This document shows positions 8,533 to 22,624 of a stretch of 64,000 nucleotides of DNA, in pieces; the stretch's first letter is position 1, and each line of letters starts with the position of its first letter. The DNA comes from Rhodophyticola porphyridii (GTDB taxonomy: Bacteria > Pseudomonadota > Alphaproteobacteria > Rhodobacterales > Rhodobacteraceae). A program made the position numbers and the translations under genes. The DNA lies in contig NZ_RCNT01000002.1 in the NCBI RefSeq assembly GCF_003688285.1, positions 310,001 to 374,000 of the forward strand. Direction: 5' to 3'. The notes under the pieces are model-generated. The model saw nothing but the letters and a program-made list of their open reading frames with translations, searched no databases and had not been told where the DNA came from.

Positions 8533-9636
8533 CTATCCGTAAACGGAGTAGAGATAGCCCCCGATCGCGGCAAGGATCAGCGCGCCCAGAACGGCGAAGG
8601 CGATTTTCCAGGCGGAATAAGGACGTTCGCCCTGCACCTTGCCGGATTGTCCGTTGACGACGAAGCGATAGCTTTTGCCACGGTATTTATACGCGGCCAG
8701 CCATACCGGCAGCAGGATATGCTTGAAGGTCACGTCGGAGACGGTGGTGTCCACGGCGTCGATTCTTTGCCGGTCGCCGCCGATATCGCTGCGGATATCC
8801 CGCGCGATCTGCGCATCCATGATCTGCCGGGCCTCGACCATGCCGTCCTCCAGATCCACTGTGTAACCTTCGGCCCGGAAGCCCGCCAGATATTCCGGCG
8901 TGTAGGGGTCGAGCGCGGTCAGATCCCAGGGGGCCAGACGGTCGGTATACCTTTTGGGCAGCGACCGGGAGGCCAGCACAAGTACGTCGTCGAAAAATCG
9001 CGCAACGCGGCCCGAGACGCGCCGCCAGCGGACCTTGGGCACCTGCTTGACGTTGCCCTTGCTGTCGCGCCGGGTCTCGTAATAGACCGTGCCGCGCTGG
9101 CCCCGATAGGCGCTGCGGGTGTCCGCATCGAAGGTCCAGTAAGGTGTGTAGATCCCGTCCAACTTGCGGCCCTTGCGGGCATAATCCTGCAGGCCGTTCG
9201 GCGCGAACCAAAGCCGGCCCAACCATCTGACCATCGCCTCGCGGGCGGCCGCCTCATCCAGCTGGAAGGGCAGAACGGCCTTGGGCTTGATATGGCGATG
9301 CGTACCGGTATCGGTGACCACAGGTGTGGCGCAGAACGGGCATTCCTTTGCATGAATTTCCGACGAGAACTCCACCTGCGCGCCGCAATTGGGGCAGGTC
9401 AGGACGCGAGTTTCCTCCATCTCCTGGGCCGGCAACTGGTCGCGGATGGCCGAAACGAAATCCAGCTCGCGGATGGCGCTGCCCGCCCATGGGCCGTTGC
9501 CTTCGATGTCTCGTTCATTGCCGCAATGATCGCAGACCAGCTTGCCCTGATCGGGGTCGAAACGGAAATCGGACCCGCAGTTGTCGCATGGAAAGCGATG
9601 CTCTTCGCCGGGGTTTGAGGACAGGCCGTCTGCCAT
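8533..9636 (-). CDS. Zinc-ribbon membrane protein paired with SPFH protein
   Basis: A 367-aa protein with two N-terminal zinc ribbons (CDNCGS...CDHCG and CPNCGA...CPFC), a long middle domain, and one C-terminal transmembrane helix (WKIAFAVLGALILAAIGGYL). Often named a primosomal N'-like or TFIIB-type zinc-finger protein, but there is no helicase domain. In many bacteria it is encoded beside the SPFH/virion-core protein, as here. The ATG at 9636 is used because the longer reading (to 9798) runs back through the SPFH gene's C-terminus in another frame. Role unknown, probably membrane stress. Confidence 0.8.
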   Translation of the reverse strand: MADGLSSNPGEEHRFPCDNCGSDFRFDPDQGKLVCDHCGNERDIEGNGPWAGSAIRELDFVSAIRDQLPAQEMEETRVLTCPNCGAQVEFSSEIHAKECPFCATPVVTDTGTHRHIKPKAVLPFQLDEAAAREAMVRWLGRLWFAPNGLQDYARKGRKLDGIYTPYWTFDADTRSAYRGQRGTVYYETRRDSKGNVKQVPKVRWRRVSGRVARFFDDVLVLASRSLPKRYTDRLAPWDLTALDPYTPEYLAGFRAEGYTVDLEDGMVEARQIMDAQIARDIRSDIGGDRQRIDAVDTTVSDVTFKHILLPVWLAAYKYRGKSYRFVVNGQSGKVQGERPYSAWKIAFAVLGALILAAIGGYLYSVYG

Positions 9637-9691
9637 GAATTCTATGCCTTTGACGAGGGTAGTTCCGAGCGGGGGATGAGACCCGGCATCG

Positions 9692-10822
9692 TCAGTTTGC
9701 AGGCGGGGGCGGCGGTGGCGGCATGACCGTGAAGAGCTGCGCCAGCTCGTCCACCTCATCGGCGGTTTTCCAGCCGTCCTGACCTTGCGTCCAGACATGG
9801 GTTTCCCGGGTCAGGCTGCCATCTCCGGCCATGCGGCCCAGATCGGCCCGGGAAAACGGGCCCTTGGTCTGGCCGTTTTCGGCGATGTGCCAGACATGCT
9901 CGACCGGCGGGGGCGGCGGGGCGGCGGGCGCGGGGTCGCCCGAGCGCGCCTGCGCGGCGCCCCAGGGCCCGGTCTGAGCCATCTGGTTTGCCATCGCCAT
10001 ACCCATCCCCATGCCCAGGCCTGCCCCCATGCCGCTATCGCCGCCGGGATTTTCGGCTGCCGCGCGCATCGCCTCGGCGGTCTGGAACTGCTGATACTTG
10101 GTCAGATCGCCGACCACACCCATCGAGGTGCGCTTGTCCAGCGCCTGTTCCACCGCCTGCGGCAGGGAGATATTCTCGATGTAGAGCTCGGGCAGCACCA
10201 GCCCGTATTGGTCAATGGTTTCCGAGATTTTTGCCGCCAGAAGCCCGCCCATCTCGCCGGCATTGGCCGCCATGTCCAGAACCGGAATACCCGAGCCCGC
10301 GACCACACGGGAAAACGCCTGAACGATGATGTTGCGGATCTGGAACGTCACCTCGTCCTTGGTGAACTCGCCATCTGTGCCCACGATCTCGGCCATGAAC
10401 CGGGCGGCGTCCTTGACCTTGACGGTGTAGGTGCCGAACGCGCGGATGCGGGTCGGCCCGAATTCCGGATCGCGCAGCATGATGGGGTTTTTCGTGCCCC
10501 ATTTCAGATCGGTGAACCGGTTGGTGGAGACGAAATAGATTTCGGACTTGAAGGGGGATTTGAAGCCGTGATCCCAGTGCTGAAGGCTGGTCATGATCGG
10601 CATGTTGTTGGTTTCCAGCATATACAGGCCGGGGGTGAACACATCCGCCAGCTGTCCTTCGTGGATGAACACTGCCGTCTGCCCCTCGCGCACGGTCAGC
10701 TTGGCGCCATACTTGATTTCGTGACCGTGGCGTTCGAACCGCCAGACCATGGTGTCGCGGGTGTCATCGGTCCACTCGATGACGTCGATGAACTGGCCGG
10801 AGAGGAAATCGAAAATGGGCAT
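9692..10822 (-). CDS. SPFH-domain protein with C-terminal GYF-like domain (YdjI/virion-core family)
   Basis: A 376-aa protein. The first 250 residues are an SPFH (band-7-like) domain of the YdjI family (MPIFDFLSGQFIDVIEW, IRAFGTYTVKVKD). A low-complexity Gly/Met stretch (GMGAGLGMGMGMAMANQM) and a proline run follow, then a GYF_2-type domain (HVWHIAENGQTKGPFSRADL, about residues 310-355) and a polyproline tail. There is no transmembrane helix, so it probably binds membranes peripherally. B. subtilis YdjI is a partner of a PspA-type stress system. Cotranscribed with the zinc-ribbon gene. Confidence 0.86.
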   Translation of the reverse strand: MPIFDFLSGQFIDVIEWTDDTRDTMVWRFERHGHEIKYGAKLTVREGQTAVFIHEGQLADVFTPGLYMLETNNMPIMTSLQHWDHGFKSPFKSEIYFVSTNRFTDLKWGTKNPIMLRDPEFGPTRIRAFGTYTVKVKDAARFMAEIVGTDGEFTKDEVTFQIRNIIVQAFSRVVAGSGIPVLDMAANAGEMGGLLAAKISETIDQYGLVLPELYIENISLPQAVEQALDKRTSMGVVGDLTKYQQFQTAEAMRAAAENPGGDSGMGAGLGMGMGMAMANQMAQTGPWGAAQARSGDPAPAAPPPPPVEHVWHIAENGQTKGPFSRADLGRMAGDGSLTRETHVWTQGQDGWKTADEVDELAQLFTVMPPPPPPPAN

Positions 10823-18593: not shown

Positions 18594-18738
18594 TCGGCAC
18601 CGGGGCGGCGTCGCAATCTGCCCGGAATGTGATCTGCGCGGTCTGCACTTGCGTATAAACAAGGCAGGTCAGGGATTTGAATGCGCGGGCATTTGCCCCA
18701 TATTCGAAAGCTCGGAGAAGGAAGAGGAGGGGTTGCCC

Positions 18739-19833
18739 GTGAATTTGCATGTGACACCGACGGCGGAAACCCCAAGCACGGAAGAGGCCGCAAGGGCGCT
18801 GACCCTGTTGAAAGCCTGGGCGGAGAGTGCAGGTGCGGGCGCGATCGACGCGCTGGATCCGGCGGCGGTCGGGTTGCTGACCGCCGTGGCGTACCCGGAA
18901 TTTGCCCGTGACTACCCGGCCGATTTCGCGGTGGATCCGGGCTACAAGGCAACGCTGCCCGACCTGCAGAACGGGCCGGCCTCCCTGATCCGGGGGGCAA
19001 ACCGGCAGATTCAGCATGTGGGCATCTCCAATTTCCGGCTGCCGATCCGCTATCAGACCCGTGACAATGGCGACTTGGCCCTGGAAACCTCGGTTACCGG
19101 GACCGTAAGCCTGGACGCGGAGAAGAAGGGCATCAACATGTCCCGGATCATGCGGTCTTTCTACCGGCATGCGGACCGGGCCTTCAGCTTCGAGGTGATC
19201 GAGGCGGCATTGGAGGATTACAAGACCGATCTGGAAAGCTTCGATGCCCGCATCCAGATGCGGCTGAGCTTTCCGATGCGGGTGGAGAGCCTGCGTTCGG
19301 GCCTGAGCGGGTACCAGTATTACGATATCGCGCTGGAACTGGTCGAGCAGGGCGGTGTGCGCAAGAAGATCGTCCATCTGGATTACGTCTATTCCTCCAC
19401 CTGTCCCTGTTCGCTGGAACTGAGCGAGCATGCGCGCGCGACACGGGCGCAACTCGCCACGCCCCATTCGCAGCGATCCGTCGCCCGGCTGTCGGTGGAG
19501 GTGAACAACGAGGCTGGGTGCCTGTGGTTCGAGGATCTGGTGGAAATGGCCCGCGCCGCCGTGCCTACGGAAACTCAGGTGATGGTGAAACGCGAAGACG
19601 AACAGGCGTTCGCTGAGCTGAACGCCGCCAATCCCATTTTCGTGGAAGATGCCGCGCGTCTGTTTGCCGAGCAGATGCAGGCCGACCCGCGCATCGGCGA
19701 TTTCCGTGTCGTGGCCAGCCATCAGGAAAGCCTGCACAGCCATGATGCGGTCAGCGTTCTGACGGAGGGGGAGACGTTCGCCGCCGACAGCCTGGACCCG
19801 AAACTTTTCGCCACGCTGTTCCACGTGGGCTGA
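18739..19833 (+). CDS. folE2: GTP cyclohydrolase IB (FolE2)
   Basis: A 364-aa GCYH-IB enzyme; it opens the GTP imidazole ring to form 7,8-dihydroneopterin triphosphate for folate or queuosine. Marker segments are VGISNFRLPI, the metal/active-site Cys region YSSTCPCSLELSEHARA, and the C-terminal SHQESLHSHDAV. Starts at GTG 18739 just after AGGAGGGG; the upstream in-frame codons from 18649 lack conservation. FolE2 is zinc-independent and is often under Zur control, but no clear Zur box is seen upstream. Confidence 0.95.
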   Translation: MNLHVTPTAETPSTEEAARALTLLKAWAESAGAGAIDALDPAAVGLLTAVAYPEFARDYPADFAVDPGYKATLPDLQNGPASLIRGANRQIQHVGISNFRLPIRYQTRDNGDLALETSVTGTVSLDAEKKGINMSRIMRSFYRHADRAFSFEVIEAALEDYKTDLESFDARIQMRLSFPMRVESLRSGLSGYQYYDIALELVEQGGVRKKIVHLDYVYSSTCPCSLELSEHARATRAQLATPHSQRSVARLSVEVNNEAGCLWFEDLVEMARAAVPTETQVMVKREDEQAFAELNAANPIFVEDAARLFAEQMQADPRIGDFRVVASHQESLHSHDAVSVLTEGETFAADSLDPKLFATLFHVG

Positions 19834-19930: not shown

Positions 19931-20395
19931 TCAGAACCCGCGCCGGCCAAAGCCGACTGGATCCGCGTTCATCCCGAGATCGGAATCGGTAAGCCCCGTT
20001 CGGCGGGTGCCGCGCCCATTGCCGACCGGATCGGCGAAGGCGCCGGTATCCCGGTCGGTAACGCCGCTTCGCACCTGGGTGAACCCGCCGCCGCCACGGC
20101 CGAAGCCGCCCGGATCGGTAATCGGGCCGTTATCGGCATCGGTGATCCCGGTGCGGTTGCTGCGCAGGCCGCCGCGCCCGCGCCCGCCCGGATCGGTGAT
20201 CGGACCGTTATCGGAATCCGTGACCCCGCCGCCAACCGTGGTGGGGGTCGCAACGCAGCCGCTGAGCCCGAGGCCAATGGTGCCCAGACCCATGCCGCTC
20301 AGCAACCGCCGCCTGTTCAACCCGCGGGATGTCTTGATACTGCTGTCGGCGAGATCGGACTTGCCGGGCGATTTCGGCTTTTCTTCATCACTCAT
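19931..20395 (-). CDS. Tat-exported lipoprotein made of four Asp/Gly-rich repeats (paralogue A)
   Basis: A 154-aa protein. SRGLNRRRLLSGMGLG is a twin-arginine signal and LSGC (Cys47) a lipobox, so it is probably a Tat-exported lipoprotein. The mature part is four copies of an 18-residue unit at about 57-74, 83-100, 111-128 and 134-151, with consensus G-hydrophobic-TDxDxGxxxDPxGxGR. Spacing is 26, 28 and 23 residues; the last two copies are more diverged (DPVG). The DxDxGxxxD pattern resembles calcium-binding loops, but metal binding is only inference. Neighbour and paralogue of 20504-20938. No known family recognised. Confidence 0.8.
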   Translation of the reverse strand: MSDEEKPKSPGKSDLADSSIKTSRGLNRRRLLSGMGLGTIGLGLSGCVATPTTVGGGVTDSDNGPITDPGGRGRGGLRSNRTGITDADNGPITDPGGFGRGGGGFTQVRSGVTDRDTGAFADPVGNGRGTRRTGLTDSDLGMNADPVGFGRRGF

Positions 20396-20450
20396 GGCAC
20401 TGGCCTTTCATCGGCTTTGGAAGCTACGGGAACGCGTATCATCCGGCGGA

Positions 20451-20476
20451 CCGCCCCCCCGAATGGTCGGGGGGCG
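20451..20476 (-). terminator. GC-rich hairpin between the two repeat-protein genes
   Basis: On the minus strand CGCCCCCCGA and TTCGGGGGGGCGG form a long near-perfect stem with a 3-4 nt loop, 28 bp after the stop of the 20504-20938 gene. There is no T-run, so it may be a processing or attenuating hairpin rather than a classical terminator. Confidence 0.4.
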
Positions 20477-20503
20477 TGTCGCGGTCACATGGTCAGGCCT
20501 GCA

Positions 20504-20938
20504 TCATCCGCGGCCGTTGCCGCCCGGGTCGGAGCAATTGCCGCTATCCGCATCGGTCACGCCGCTGGCCGCATTGCGCGGCACGCCACGACCTGCGGAA
20601 CCCGGATCGGTCCAGGTGCCATTGTCGCGGTCGGTGTAACCGGCGCGTTGCTGACGGCCGTCGCCGCGCCCGTTTCCGCCCGGGTCGCGCCAGGCGCCAT
20701 TGTCCTGATCGGTCACGCCGGATCCGTAGGCCCGGCAATAGCCGCGCCCGCGCCCGCCCGGATCGGTGATTGCGCCGTTGTCGTTGTCGGTTCCGGCTTC
20801 GGCGCGGCTCGTCCCGACGCCCGCGATCGTCACGCCCAGCGCTGCGGTGCCGGCGCCGCGCAGTATGCCTCGGCGATTGACGGATGTGGAAATCTCGCTG
20901 TCAGAAAGGGTTTTTCTGCCGTCTTGCTTGTCGTTCAC
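20504..20938 (-). CDS. Tat-exported protein made of four Asp/Gly-rich repeats (paralogue B)
   Basis: A 144-aa protein from GTG 20938, chosen because AGAGGA lies 7 nt upstream; a longer reading to 21025 has no such site. SVNRRGILRGAG is a Tat signal ending near SRAEA, with no lipobox, so the product is probably a soluble periplasmic or secreted protein. Four repeat units lie at about 48-65, 74-91, 100-117 and 126-143, an exact 26-residue period (78 bp), consensus G-x-TDxDxGxxxDPGGxGR. Two cysteines (68 and 134) could pair. Paralogue of 19931-20395, with stretches of near-identical DNA. Confidence 0.8.
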   Translation of the reverse strand: MNDKQDGRKTLSDSEISTSVNRRGILRGAGTAALGVTIAGVGTSRAEAGTDNDNGAITDPGGRGRGYCRAYGSGVTDQDNGAWRDPGGNGRGDGRQQRAGYTDRDNGTWTDPGSAGRGVPRNAASGVTDADSGNCSDPGGNGRG

Positions 20939-21036
20939 AATGAATTCCTCTGGCTTGCTCGTGGCCGTCGCGGCTACGGGGGGCTGGGATATGTCGCGGA
21001 TGTTGGCCGCATGAAAAGAAACCATAATCTGGAGAC

Positions 21037-21175: not shown

Positions 21176-22624
21176 ATGTTTGACCTGCGGCCGGTGGGCT
21201 ACGTTTTGGGACTTTTGGTATCGGTGCTGGGGGCAACGATGCTGCTGCCTTTGGGTGTCGATCTCTACATGCAGAACGGTCACTGGCAGAGCTTTGCCGA
21301 AGCCGCGCTGATCACCATAGTGATCGGCGTGTTCCTGACACTGGCCTGCGCCAACGCGGTGACGCGTGGCCTGACCTTGCAGCAGACCTTCCTGCTAACC
21401 ACCGGGGTCTGGCTCGTGTTGCCGGTCTTCGGGGCGCTGCCCTTTGTCTTCGGCGCGACCGAGGCGGCCTATGTGGATGCCTTTTTCGAAGCGATGTCGG
21501 GGCTGACCACCACGGGCTCGACCGTTCTGACCGGGCTGGATCAGCTGCCCGAGGGCATCCTGCTCTGGCGGGGTCTGCTACAGTGGTTCGGTGGCATCGG
21601 CATCATCGTCGTGGCGATGGTGTTCCTGCCTGAGTTGCGGGTCGGCGGTATGCAGATCTTCCGCTCCGAAGGGTTCGACACCTTCGGAAAGATCCTTCCG
21701 CGCGCCACCGAAATCGCCAGCCGGATCTGGGTGATCTACTTGACCCTGACACTATGCTGCGCGGCGGCCTATGCAACACTCGGCATGGATGTCTTCGACG
21801 CGATCGTGCACGCCATGACGACTGTCGCCACAGGCGGATTTGCCAATTCCGATGCATCTTTCGGCGCGTTCGGGCCGGGAGTGGAATACGCCGCCGTGGT
21901 CTTCATGCTGCTCGCGGCCCTGCCGTTCGTGCGGTATGTTCAGCTGGTGGCGGGCTCGGCCCGGCCGCTCTGGATCGACAGCCAGATCCGGGCGTTCTTC
22001 CTGACCGTTCTTGCGCTTGTCTCGGTCATGACGCTCTGGCTGGTTCTCGGCGACGCGGCGGGCGGGGAGTTTGCCCTGCGCAAGGCGCTGTTCAACACGG
22101 TCTCGATCGTCACCGGCACCGGGTACGCCAGCGCCGACTACATGCAATGGGGGGCTTTCGCGGTCGTGGTCTTCTTCTTTGCGGGGCTGATCGGGGGCTG
22201 CGCCGGATCGACCTCATGCTCGATCAAGGTGTTCCGCTACCAGCTTCTGATGGCGTCAATCTCCACCCAGGTGAAACGGCTCTACGCGCCCCATGGCATT
22301 TTCGAGCCACGCTATCAGGGCCGCCCGGTGGCGGAGGACGTGCTGAACTCGGTCATGGCGTTTTTCGTTCTGTTCTTCGTCACCCTTGGGGTGGTCGCCG
22401 TCTTGCTGGGGCTGACCGGGCTTGATTTCATCACCGCCGTGTCCGGTGCGGCAACCGCACTGGGCAATATCGGCCCGGGGCTTGGCCCGGTGATCGGGCC
22501 CGCGGGCACATTCGCGGAACTGAACGACACGGCGAAATGGATCTTGTCGGCGGCCATGCTGATCGGCCGTCTGGAACTGATGGCGGTTTTTGTTCTGTTC
22601 ACCGCGGCGTTCTGGCGGACGTAA
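21176..22624 (+). CDS. trkH: TrkH-family potassium uptake protein
   Basis: A 482-aa polytopic membrane protein beginning MFDLRPVGYVLGLLVSVLGA, the usual TrkH N-terminus. The four pore-loop segments can be seen: MSGLTTTGSTVL, TTVATGGFANSDASF, SIVTGTGYASADY and ATALGNIGPGLGPV, each with the selectivity-filter Gly. It is the K+-translocating subunit that works with the NAD-binding TrkA, which is not encoded here. The 3' end overlaps the convergent flavoprotein gene by 26 bp. Confidence 0.93.
   Translation: MFDLRPVGYVLGLLVSVLGATMLLPLGVDLYMQNGHWQSFAEAALITIVIGVFLTLACANAVTRGLTLQQTFLLTTGVWLVLPVFGALPFVFGATEAAYVDAFFEAMSGLTTTGSTVLTGLDQLPEGILLWRGLLQWFGGIGIIVVAMVFLPELRVGGMQIFRSEGFDTFGKILPRATEIASRIWVIYLTLTLCCAAAYATLGMDVFDAIVHAMTTVATGGFANSDASFGAFGPGVEYAAVVFMLLAALPFVRYVQLVAGSARPLWIDSQIRAFFLTVLALVSVMTLWLVLGDAAGGEFALRKALFNTVSIVTGTGYASADYMQWGAFAVVVFFFAGLIGGCAGSTSCSIKVFRYQLLMASISTQVKRLYAPHGIFEPRYQGRPVAEDVLNSVMAFFVLFFVTLGVVAVLLGLTGLDFITAVSGAATALGNIGPGLGPVIGPAGTFAELNDTAKWILSAAMLIGRLELMAVFVLFTAAFWRT

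Follow-up and report, generated by a model that had tools for sequence, protein, structure and literature searches.

Two neighbouring minus-strand orfs were present in the window, that is, the whole 64,000-nt stretch of Rhodophyticola porphyridii DNA analysed here. They encoded a lipoprotein and a soluble protein built of the same short repeat, and lay 108 bp apart; their products are probably the substrates of a JmjC hydroxylase dedicated to them, whose gene is found elsewhere in the genome, beside a third paralogue. The probability of this reading is put at about two in three (0.66), a figure covering the full model, in which the repeats would be hydroxylated in the cytosol, most likely at the Asp of TDxD, before export by the Tat pathway. 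The repeat family was usually encoded together with this enzyme, whose gene in the genome under study lay on another contig, outside the window.

The gene pair was flanked by two plus-strand frames that by eye resembled trkH (from nt 21176) and folE2 (nt 18649–19833). For the soluble protein, the GTG at nt 20938 was preferred to the ATG at nt 21025 as the start codon because the orthologues in loci L007 and L010 begin at the matching place. Each window protein had four units (Table 1), beginning at residues 50, 76, 102, and 128 in the soluble protein (spacing 26, 26, 26) and at residues 59, 85, 113, and 136 in the lipoprotein (spacing 26, 28, 23). The exact 26-residue (78 bp) period described for the soluble protein in the first-pass annotation was thus found again, also as a 78-nt spacing in the DNA; its 18-residue motif had to be shortened, the conserved unit being 16 to 17 residues long. 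In the DNA, all eight units formed one direct-repeat family of 61 nt, in keeping with the origin by duplication proposed earlier. The near-identity that the two genes had been said to share held for short pieces, the copies at nt 20168 and 20738 having 30 identical nt in common, but not for the units overall, seven of which were 64% to 84% identical to the reference copy.

Codon pairs differing by one change among orthologues within the genus were mostly synonymous, with 506 synonymous versus 92 non-synonymous for the soluble protein (5 sequences), 444 versus 109 for the lipoprotein (5 sequences), and 482 versus 84 for the third paralogue (6 sequences). Both window genes are under purifying selection, and the frames therefore look translated and constrained, as the earlier reading had supposed. 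Twin arginines followed by a hydrophobic stretch and a cleavage site or lipobox were read from both window proteins, which agrees with their description as a pair of Tat exports, one a lipoprotein and one soluble; profile support for Tat was weak, the soluble protein scoring 12.3 bits with TIGR01409, under the cut-off of 16.7. With a lipobox regular expression, soluble and lipoprotein forms were also recognised side by side at 22 of the 34 named loci; at the other 12, one kind only (soluble or lipoprotein) was seen.

Table 1. Coordinates of the repeat genes, their units and signals, and two enzyme-repeat gene pairs outside the window
Feature	Position	Strand	Remarks
Soluble Tat-exported repeat protein (P0002)	20504..20938	-	144 aa, GTG start, four units, exact 26-residue period
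LSDSEI of soluble protein	20891..20908	-	LxDxxI motif, N-terminal of twin arginines; putative enzyme-recognition element
Tat signal of soluble protein	20795..20878	-	NRRGIL ... AEA, read from sequence
Soluble protein unit 1, TDNDNGAITDPGGRGRG	20741..20791	-	
Soluble protein unit 2, TDQDNGAWRDPGGNGRG	20663..20713	-	
Soluble protein unit 3, TDRDNGTWTDPGSAGRG	20585..20635	-	
Soluble protein unit 4, TDADSGNCSDPGGNGRG	20507..20557	-	
Tat-exported repeat lipoprotein (P0001)	19931..20395	-	154 aa, four units
LADSSI of lipoprotein	20336..20353	-	LxDxxI motif, N-terminal of twin arginines
Tat signal and lipobox of lipoprotein	20255..20317	-	NRRRLL ... LSGC, read from sequence
Lipoprotein unit 1, TDSDNGPITDPGGRGRG	20171..20221	-	
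Lipoprotein unit 2, TDADNGPITDPGGFGRG	20093..20143	-	
Lipoprotein unit 3, TDRDTGAFADPVGNGRG	20009..20059	-	
Lipoprotein unit 4, TDSDLGMNADPVGFGRR	19940..19990	-	
Third paralogue and JmjC gene	G000:C16 about 167954-169711 (L096:7955-9712)	divergent	paralogue conserved in six genomes of the genus
Second JmjC gene of G363 beside the gene of a Tat protein with Arg-free repeats	L142:5836-6108 and L142:4535-5755	both minus	

Of 119 distinct candidate proteins, two were removed because of their composition, a single-unit match in control locus L124 among them, and two because they contained less than two anchors. The unit core deduced from the 115 that were left was T-D-x-D-x-G-x3-D-[P]-x-G-x-G-R, and a shorter version, T-D-x-D-x2-D-x2-G-x-G-R, also occurred. 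Across the 420 distinct long units, conservation at the positions left free or nearly so was 97% for T0, 98% for G5, 75% for P10, and 95% for R15, D1, D3, D9, G12, and G14 being 100% by construction of the regular expression. The same expression gave 599 units, 60 of them outside the core, a total that takes in a few cut leader segments. Among the relatives the lowest unit number listed was 2 and the highest 10, with 11 in L141, and the four units noted earlier, correct for both window proteins, are therefore not a constant of the family, whose members reach 303 aa. The third paralogue of the window's genome had 96 aa and two units, the first ending in GSCPRG, and was divergent from the JmjC gene. 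In G017, a Cys-bearing relative (CSDYDEGPRADPINRGTHC; L013:2096-2575, L099:7895-8377) was encoded divergently from a canonical repeat lipoprotein, beside a JmjC gene.

Conservation of the repeat in related genomes, set beforehand as a test, was observed in 9 of 61 relatives. The family was also present in at least 9 of 385 genomes of the class and at least 6 of 398 genomes of the phylum, samples that share some genomes and in which the best 10 and the best 9 repeat candidates per genome, respectively, were scored, so that misses are possible. It was found at the 34 named loci as well. Carriers included Boseongicola, Rhodophyticola, Roseicyclus, Pararhodobacter, Maricaulis, Hyphobacterium, Parasphingopyxis, and other Rhodobacterales, along with further alphaproteobacterial records and MAGs of uncertain taxonomy filed as deltaproteobacteria, Myxococcaceae, and Anaerolineae. 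The repeat protein of the Anaerolineae-filed MAG (L090) was very similar to that of an alphaproteobacterial MAG (L093), and the assignment of the former is likely a case of misbinning.

Searches of the window proteins against Pfam, NCBIfam, and PDB returned no fitting family and nothing above a curated cut-off, which bears out the earlier remark that no described family could be recognised; in the PDB sequence search the lipoprotein had no match. Matches to TIGR02811, TIGR01409, and PF10518 reflected the Tat signal only, those of two relatives to PF21009 and PF22856 were under the cut-offs and taken as low-complexity matches, and the nanobody sequences matched by the soluble protein in PDB (E 0.03 and 0.54) were taken as chance hits to a glycine-rich stretch. 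EF-hand, thrombospondin type 3, RTX, and dockerin modules are Ca2+-binding, Asp/Gly-rich repeats with the same DxDxG pattern, but their spacing is unlike that of the window units, and they are not known to contain the GxGR half. No match to the Pfam profiles of these four groups was obtained for the two window proteins (E 10) or for eight relatives (E 1).

Clustering of the genes neighbouring the repeats showed one recurrent neighbour in unlike gene contexts, a JmjC_2 (PF08007) protein encoded within 22 of the 34 named loci and elsewhere in the genome for all of the other 12. PF08007 was matched above its gathering score by all six enzymes scanned (87.5 to 104.2 bits versus a cut-off of 22; E 4.7e-30). 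By sequence and fold the closest solved relatives were NO66 and MINA53; with the AlphaFold2 model of the enzyme (pLDDT 85.5), Foldseek ranked NO66 first (E 1.8e-31, TM 0.69/0.66, about 24% identity), followed by MINA53 and YcfD, the latter at ranks 26 to 33 and 19% identical in the alignment. H179, D181, and H242 (HxD...H), the metal triad, and K194, the 2-oxoglutarate-binding Lys, were invariant in the 12 rows of the alignment behind profile A2, which was built from repeat-adjacent enzymes, and a Tyr aligned with Tyr167 of MINA and Tyr328 of NO66. The partner, in which no signal peptide was evident by eye, is thus identified from its sequence as a JmjC_2 Fe(II)/2-oxoglutarate oxygenase of a subfamily related to NO66 and MINA53. 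Its profile scores were bimodal in the class sample, 12 genomes having at least 416 bits and the remainder 181 or less, with the best four enzyme candidates per genome scored there and in the phylum sample, so that some may have been missed.

A total of 51 distinct JmjC sequences scored at least 377 bits with profile A2, leaving out shortened duplicate rows (L056, L053, L013, and L060) and a C-terminal fragment (L111). Adjacency proves nothing in the case of 22 of these, because the repeat gene was what led to their loci; the other 29 were obtained with the enzyme profile, 7 of them in genomes chosen for repeats elsewhere. A repeat gene lay within 185 bp of 28 of the 29, at 0 to 180 bp in 27 and at roughly 150 bp, at a contig start, in G427. 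The remaining enzyme, that of G238, ended 28 bp from a contig edge, and no repeat gene was seen in the 4.7 kb upstream. At the start of another contig, G238 had a candidate (L177:126-542) encoding a Tat protein with an LRDSDI leader and a D-x-D-rich tail without GxGR; this gene and the enzyme gene, at the end of L140, are possibly neighbours. By comparison, 20 low-scoring JmjC_2 controls (143 to 202 bits), taken from a background in which the class sample alone has at least 36 genomes with a low score only, showed no repeat gene in 3.5 to 4.2 kb of locus DNA.

At the genome level, the same 9 of the 61 relatives carried repeats and enzyme, and the congener G005 was without both. All 9 repeat-positive genomes of the class sample were among the 12 with a high-scoring enzyme, and all 6 of the phylum sample were among the 8 that were enzyme-positive; the genomes are related, and neither these counts nor those of adjacency are independent. 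G280 and G314, which in both samples had the enzyme but no repeat match at E 1e-8, nevertheless had variant repeats beside the enzyme, and the third class genome of this kind was G238. G738, whose enzyme scored 202 bits, had no repeats in the genome at E 1; in an outgroup tree this enzyme was placed within the family, next to L143, with very long branches that may be an artefact.

The enzyme tree had two sides that corresponded to presence or absence of an LxDxxI motif in the repeat neighbours. On one side (25 rows) LxDxxI stood a short way ahead of the twin arginines in one or more repeat neighbours of every enzyme, a count that includes L067 and L070, whose leader, TLRDEDIVTQPDTARRS, was read by eye rather than by script. 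On the other (24 rows from Maricaulaceae, Parasphingopyxidaceae, and others) no repeat neighbour had the motif before RR, and many began like MAKKGKLSRRSF. The motif may therefore serve in recognition by the enzyme. LSDSEI and LADSSI in the window proteins tie these to the JmjC enzyme although they do not adjoin its gene. The leader of the third paralogue, searched in the window's genome as a weak test of specificity, matched itself and, weakly, the window lipoprotein (E 0.44).

As to the residue modified, the Asp of TDxD is the most likely, judging from three variants in which the GxGR Arg is missing. First, the second enzyme gene of G363 was 81 bp from a gene for a Tat protein whose mature repeats were D-rich and Arg-free (SDYDPNDPIGGG-type). 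Second, seven enzymes, namely the six found in the window's genus (L109, L107, L151, L152, L103, and L150) together with L159, carried after EITVTK a variable T- and D-rich insert with 1 to 4 TDxD motifs and no GxGR. Set against shuffled sequences, the TDxD count was strong in four of the seven (4, 2, 1, and 12 of 20000) and weaker in three (218, 2174, and 219 of 20000); none of the 49 other enzyme rows had more than one TDxD. The third variant is the G238 candidate described above. The insert itself was a hypervariable loop, similar to the opening stretch of the substrate unit, with a length that differed between close species.

The same enzyme-substrate system could instead act on the GxGR Arg, giving C-3 hydroxyarginine as YcfD does on L16, an alternative considered unlikely. 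Counting for Arg and against Asp are the 95% conservation of Arg at this position in the 420 long units and the annotation of E. coli roxA/YcfD, a structurally related member of the family, as an L16-arginine 3-hydroxylase; moreover, the Ser that contacts His in NO66, according to PMC9994133, aligned with Gly257, which was Gly in 12 of 12 rows including YcfD. The enzyme-adjacent substrate without Arg in its mature part and the GxGR-less inserts argue against modification of Arg, and at 19% identity YcfD is a distant relative.

In the model preferred here, with Asp as the target, the repeat proteins would carry LxDxxI at the N terminus, together with a Tat signal, and the enzyme would dock through the leader where one exists. 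Using Fe(II), 2-oxoglutarate, and O2, the cytosolic oxygenase would hydroxylate the TDxDxGxxxDPxGxGR units, most likely at C-3 of the TDxD Asp to yield beta-hydroxyaspartate. The modified, largely unstructured chain would then be exported by Tat, one form lipid-anchored and the other released, export after modification being possible because Tat acts post-translationally. Outside the cell, the likely role of the hydroxylated Asp/Gly/Arg arrays would be to bind a metal ion, Ca2+ for example, or to form a hydrated surface layer. We regard with more reserve, at somewhat below even odds, the extended proposal that arrays of beta-hydroxyaspartate in disordered TDxD repeats are sent by Tat to serve as soluble and lipid-anchored surface polymers, and that the genus enzymes took up the TDxD motif in a loop of their own, which may undergo self-modification or act as a built-in pseudo-substrate gate.

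The use of Tat had previously been taken to imply a domain folded or loaded with a cofactor before export. The soluble protein was predicted by AlphaFold2 to be disordered (pLDDT 35.7, pTM 0.12, from a shallow alignment of 10 rows only), and Tat is reported (PMC6708511) to tolerate 100 to 120 aa of unstructured hydrophilic sequence; folding therefore need not be the reason for Tat, and that implication was not supported. A modification step in the cytosol could be the reason instead, small disordered proteins staying there long enough to be modified. Also counting against the model, members of up to 303 aa exceed the unstructured length reported to pass Tat, which the model leaves unexplained, and the window's own pair is not next to the enzyme gene.

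Tandem similar units in variable number, an N terminus resembling a leader, and a tailoring oxygenase of their own also bring to mind multicore RiPP precursors, and the repeat proteins might be true RiPP precursors cut after export into small peptides, each unit being a core peptide. A gene order of this kind, precursor beside tailoring enzyme, was observed for 28 of the 29 profile-found enzymes, though not for the window's own pair, and the leader motif followed one enzyme clade and was missing from the other. This reading is held to be quite improbable, for an inspection by eye of the 45 neighbour clusters listed showed no gene for a protease or transporter recurring across orders, and the lipoprotein forms argue for retention. 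Least probable among the alternatives is that, in line with the metal-binding loop of the first-pass annotation, the repeats bind calcium or iron without being modified and the JmjC protein is a neighbour with another target, for instance a regulator or a protein of the ribosome: to the eye DxDxGxxxD is similar to Ca2+ loops, but no known metal-binding repeat of Pfam was matched, and the pairing of enzyme clade and repeats in unlike neighbourhoods, the genome-level match, and the split of leaders by clade are not expected of an unrelated neighbour.

The reading favoured here, hydroxylation of exported repeats by the JmjC enzyme, has partial counterparts among known systems. NO66, MINA53, and YcfD/RoxA, all JmjC_2 proteins, share with the partner enzyme the fold, the HxD...H triad, and the aligned Lys and Tyr, but the substrates of these ribosomal oxygenases are His or Arg of ribosomal proteins, as stated in PMC9994133, PMC6006756, and PMC4295552, whereas what seems to be modified here is an exported repeat protein whose gene is in most cases adjacent. 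BipG and PbsQ, JmjC/cupin hydroxylases responsible for ornithine hydroxylation in biphenomycin-type RiPPs according to PMC12707348 and PMC12257519, are likewise JmjC-type 2-oxoglutarate oxygenases acting on a gene-encoded peptide of their own cluster; the BipG precursor is worked on by several other enzymes, in contrast to the single oxygenase and Tat-exported tandem repeats of the present system, for which no arginase-like partner was noticed. Hydroxylation of Asp/Asn in repeated modules by the 2-oxoglutarate enzymes AspH and FIH is the chemistry proposed here, but these are human enzymes with folded EGF or ankyrin modules as substrates, and no sequence relation was seen.

Among the open-access matches listed, judged by titles and the beginnings of abstracts, no JmjC enzyme paired with Tat-exported repeats was described, and searches of that literature with repeat motif strings gave nothing relevant by title. 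JmjC-type hydroxylation of a cluster-encoded peptide is already known; for its pairing with Tat-exported repeats, no description was found in the open-access literature. The pairing offers a way into a family of exported repeat proteins that has no name as yet, present in Alphaproteobacteria and perhaps other groups. It also points to a new class of substrate for the ribosomal-oxygenase family and would connect O2, iron, and 2-oxoglutarate with a protein that is exported.

The other genes found near the repeats, including ruvC, ruvB, a transketolase gene, trkH, and the folE2-like frame recognised by eye, were each confined to one group of related genomes and were set aside as ordinary synteny. 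A propeller-like gene, by eye of the strictosidine-synthase/gluconolactonase type, was located near the JmjC gene in L073 (nt 8563–9723) and at 10 further loci, only in Maricaulis and Hyphobacterium-like genomes.
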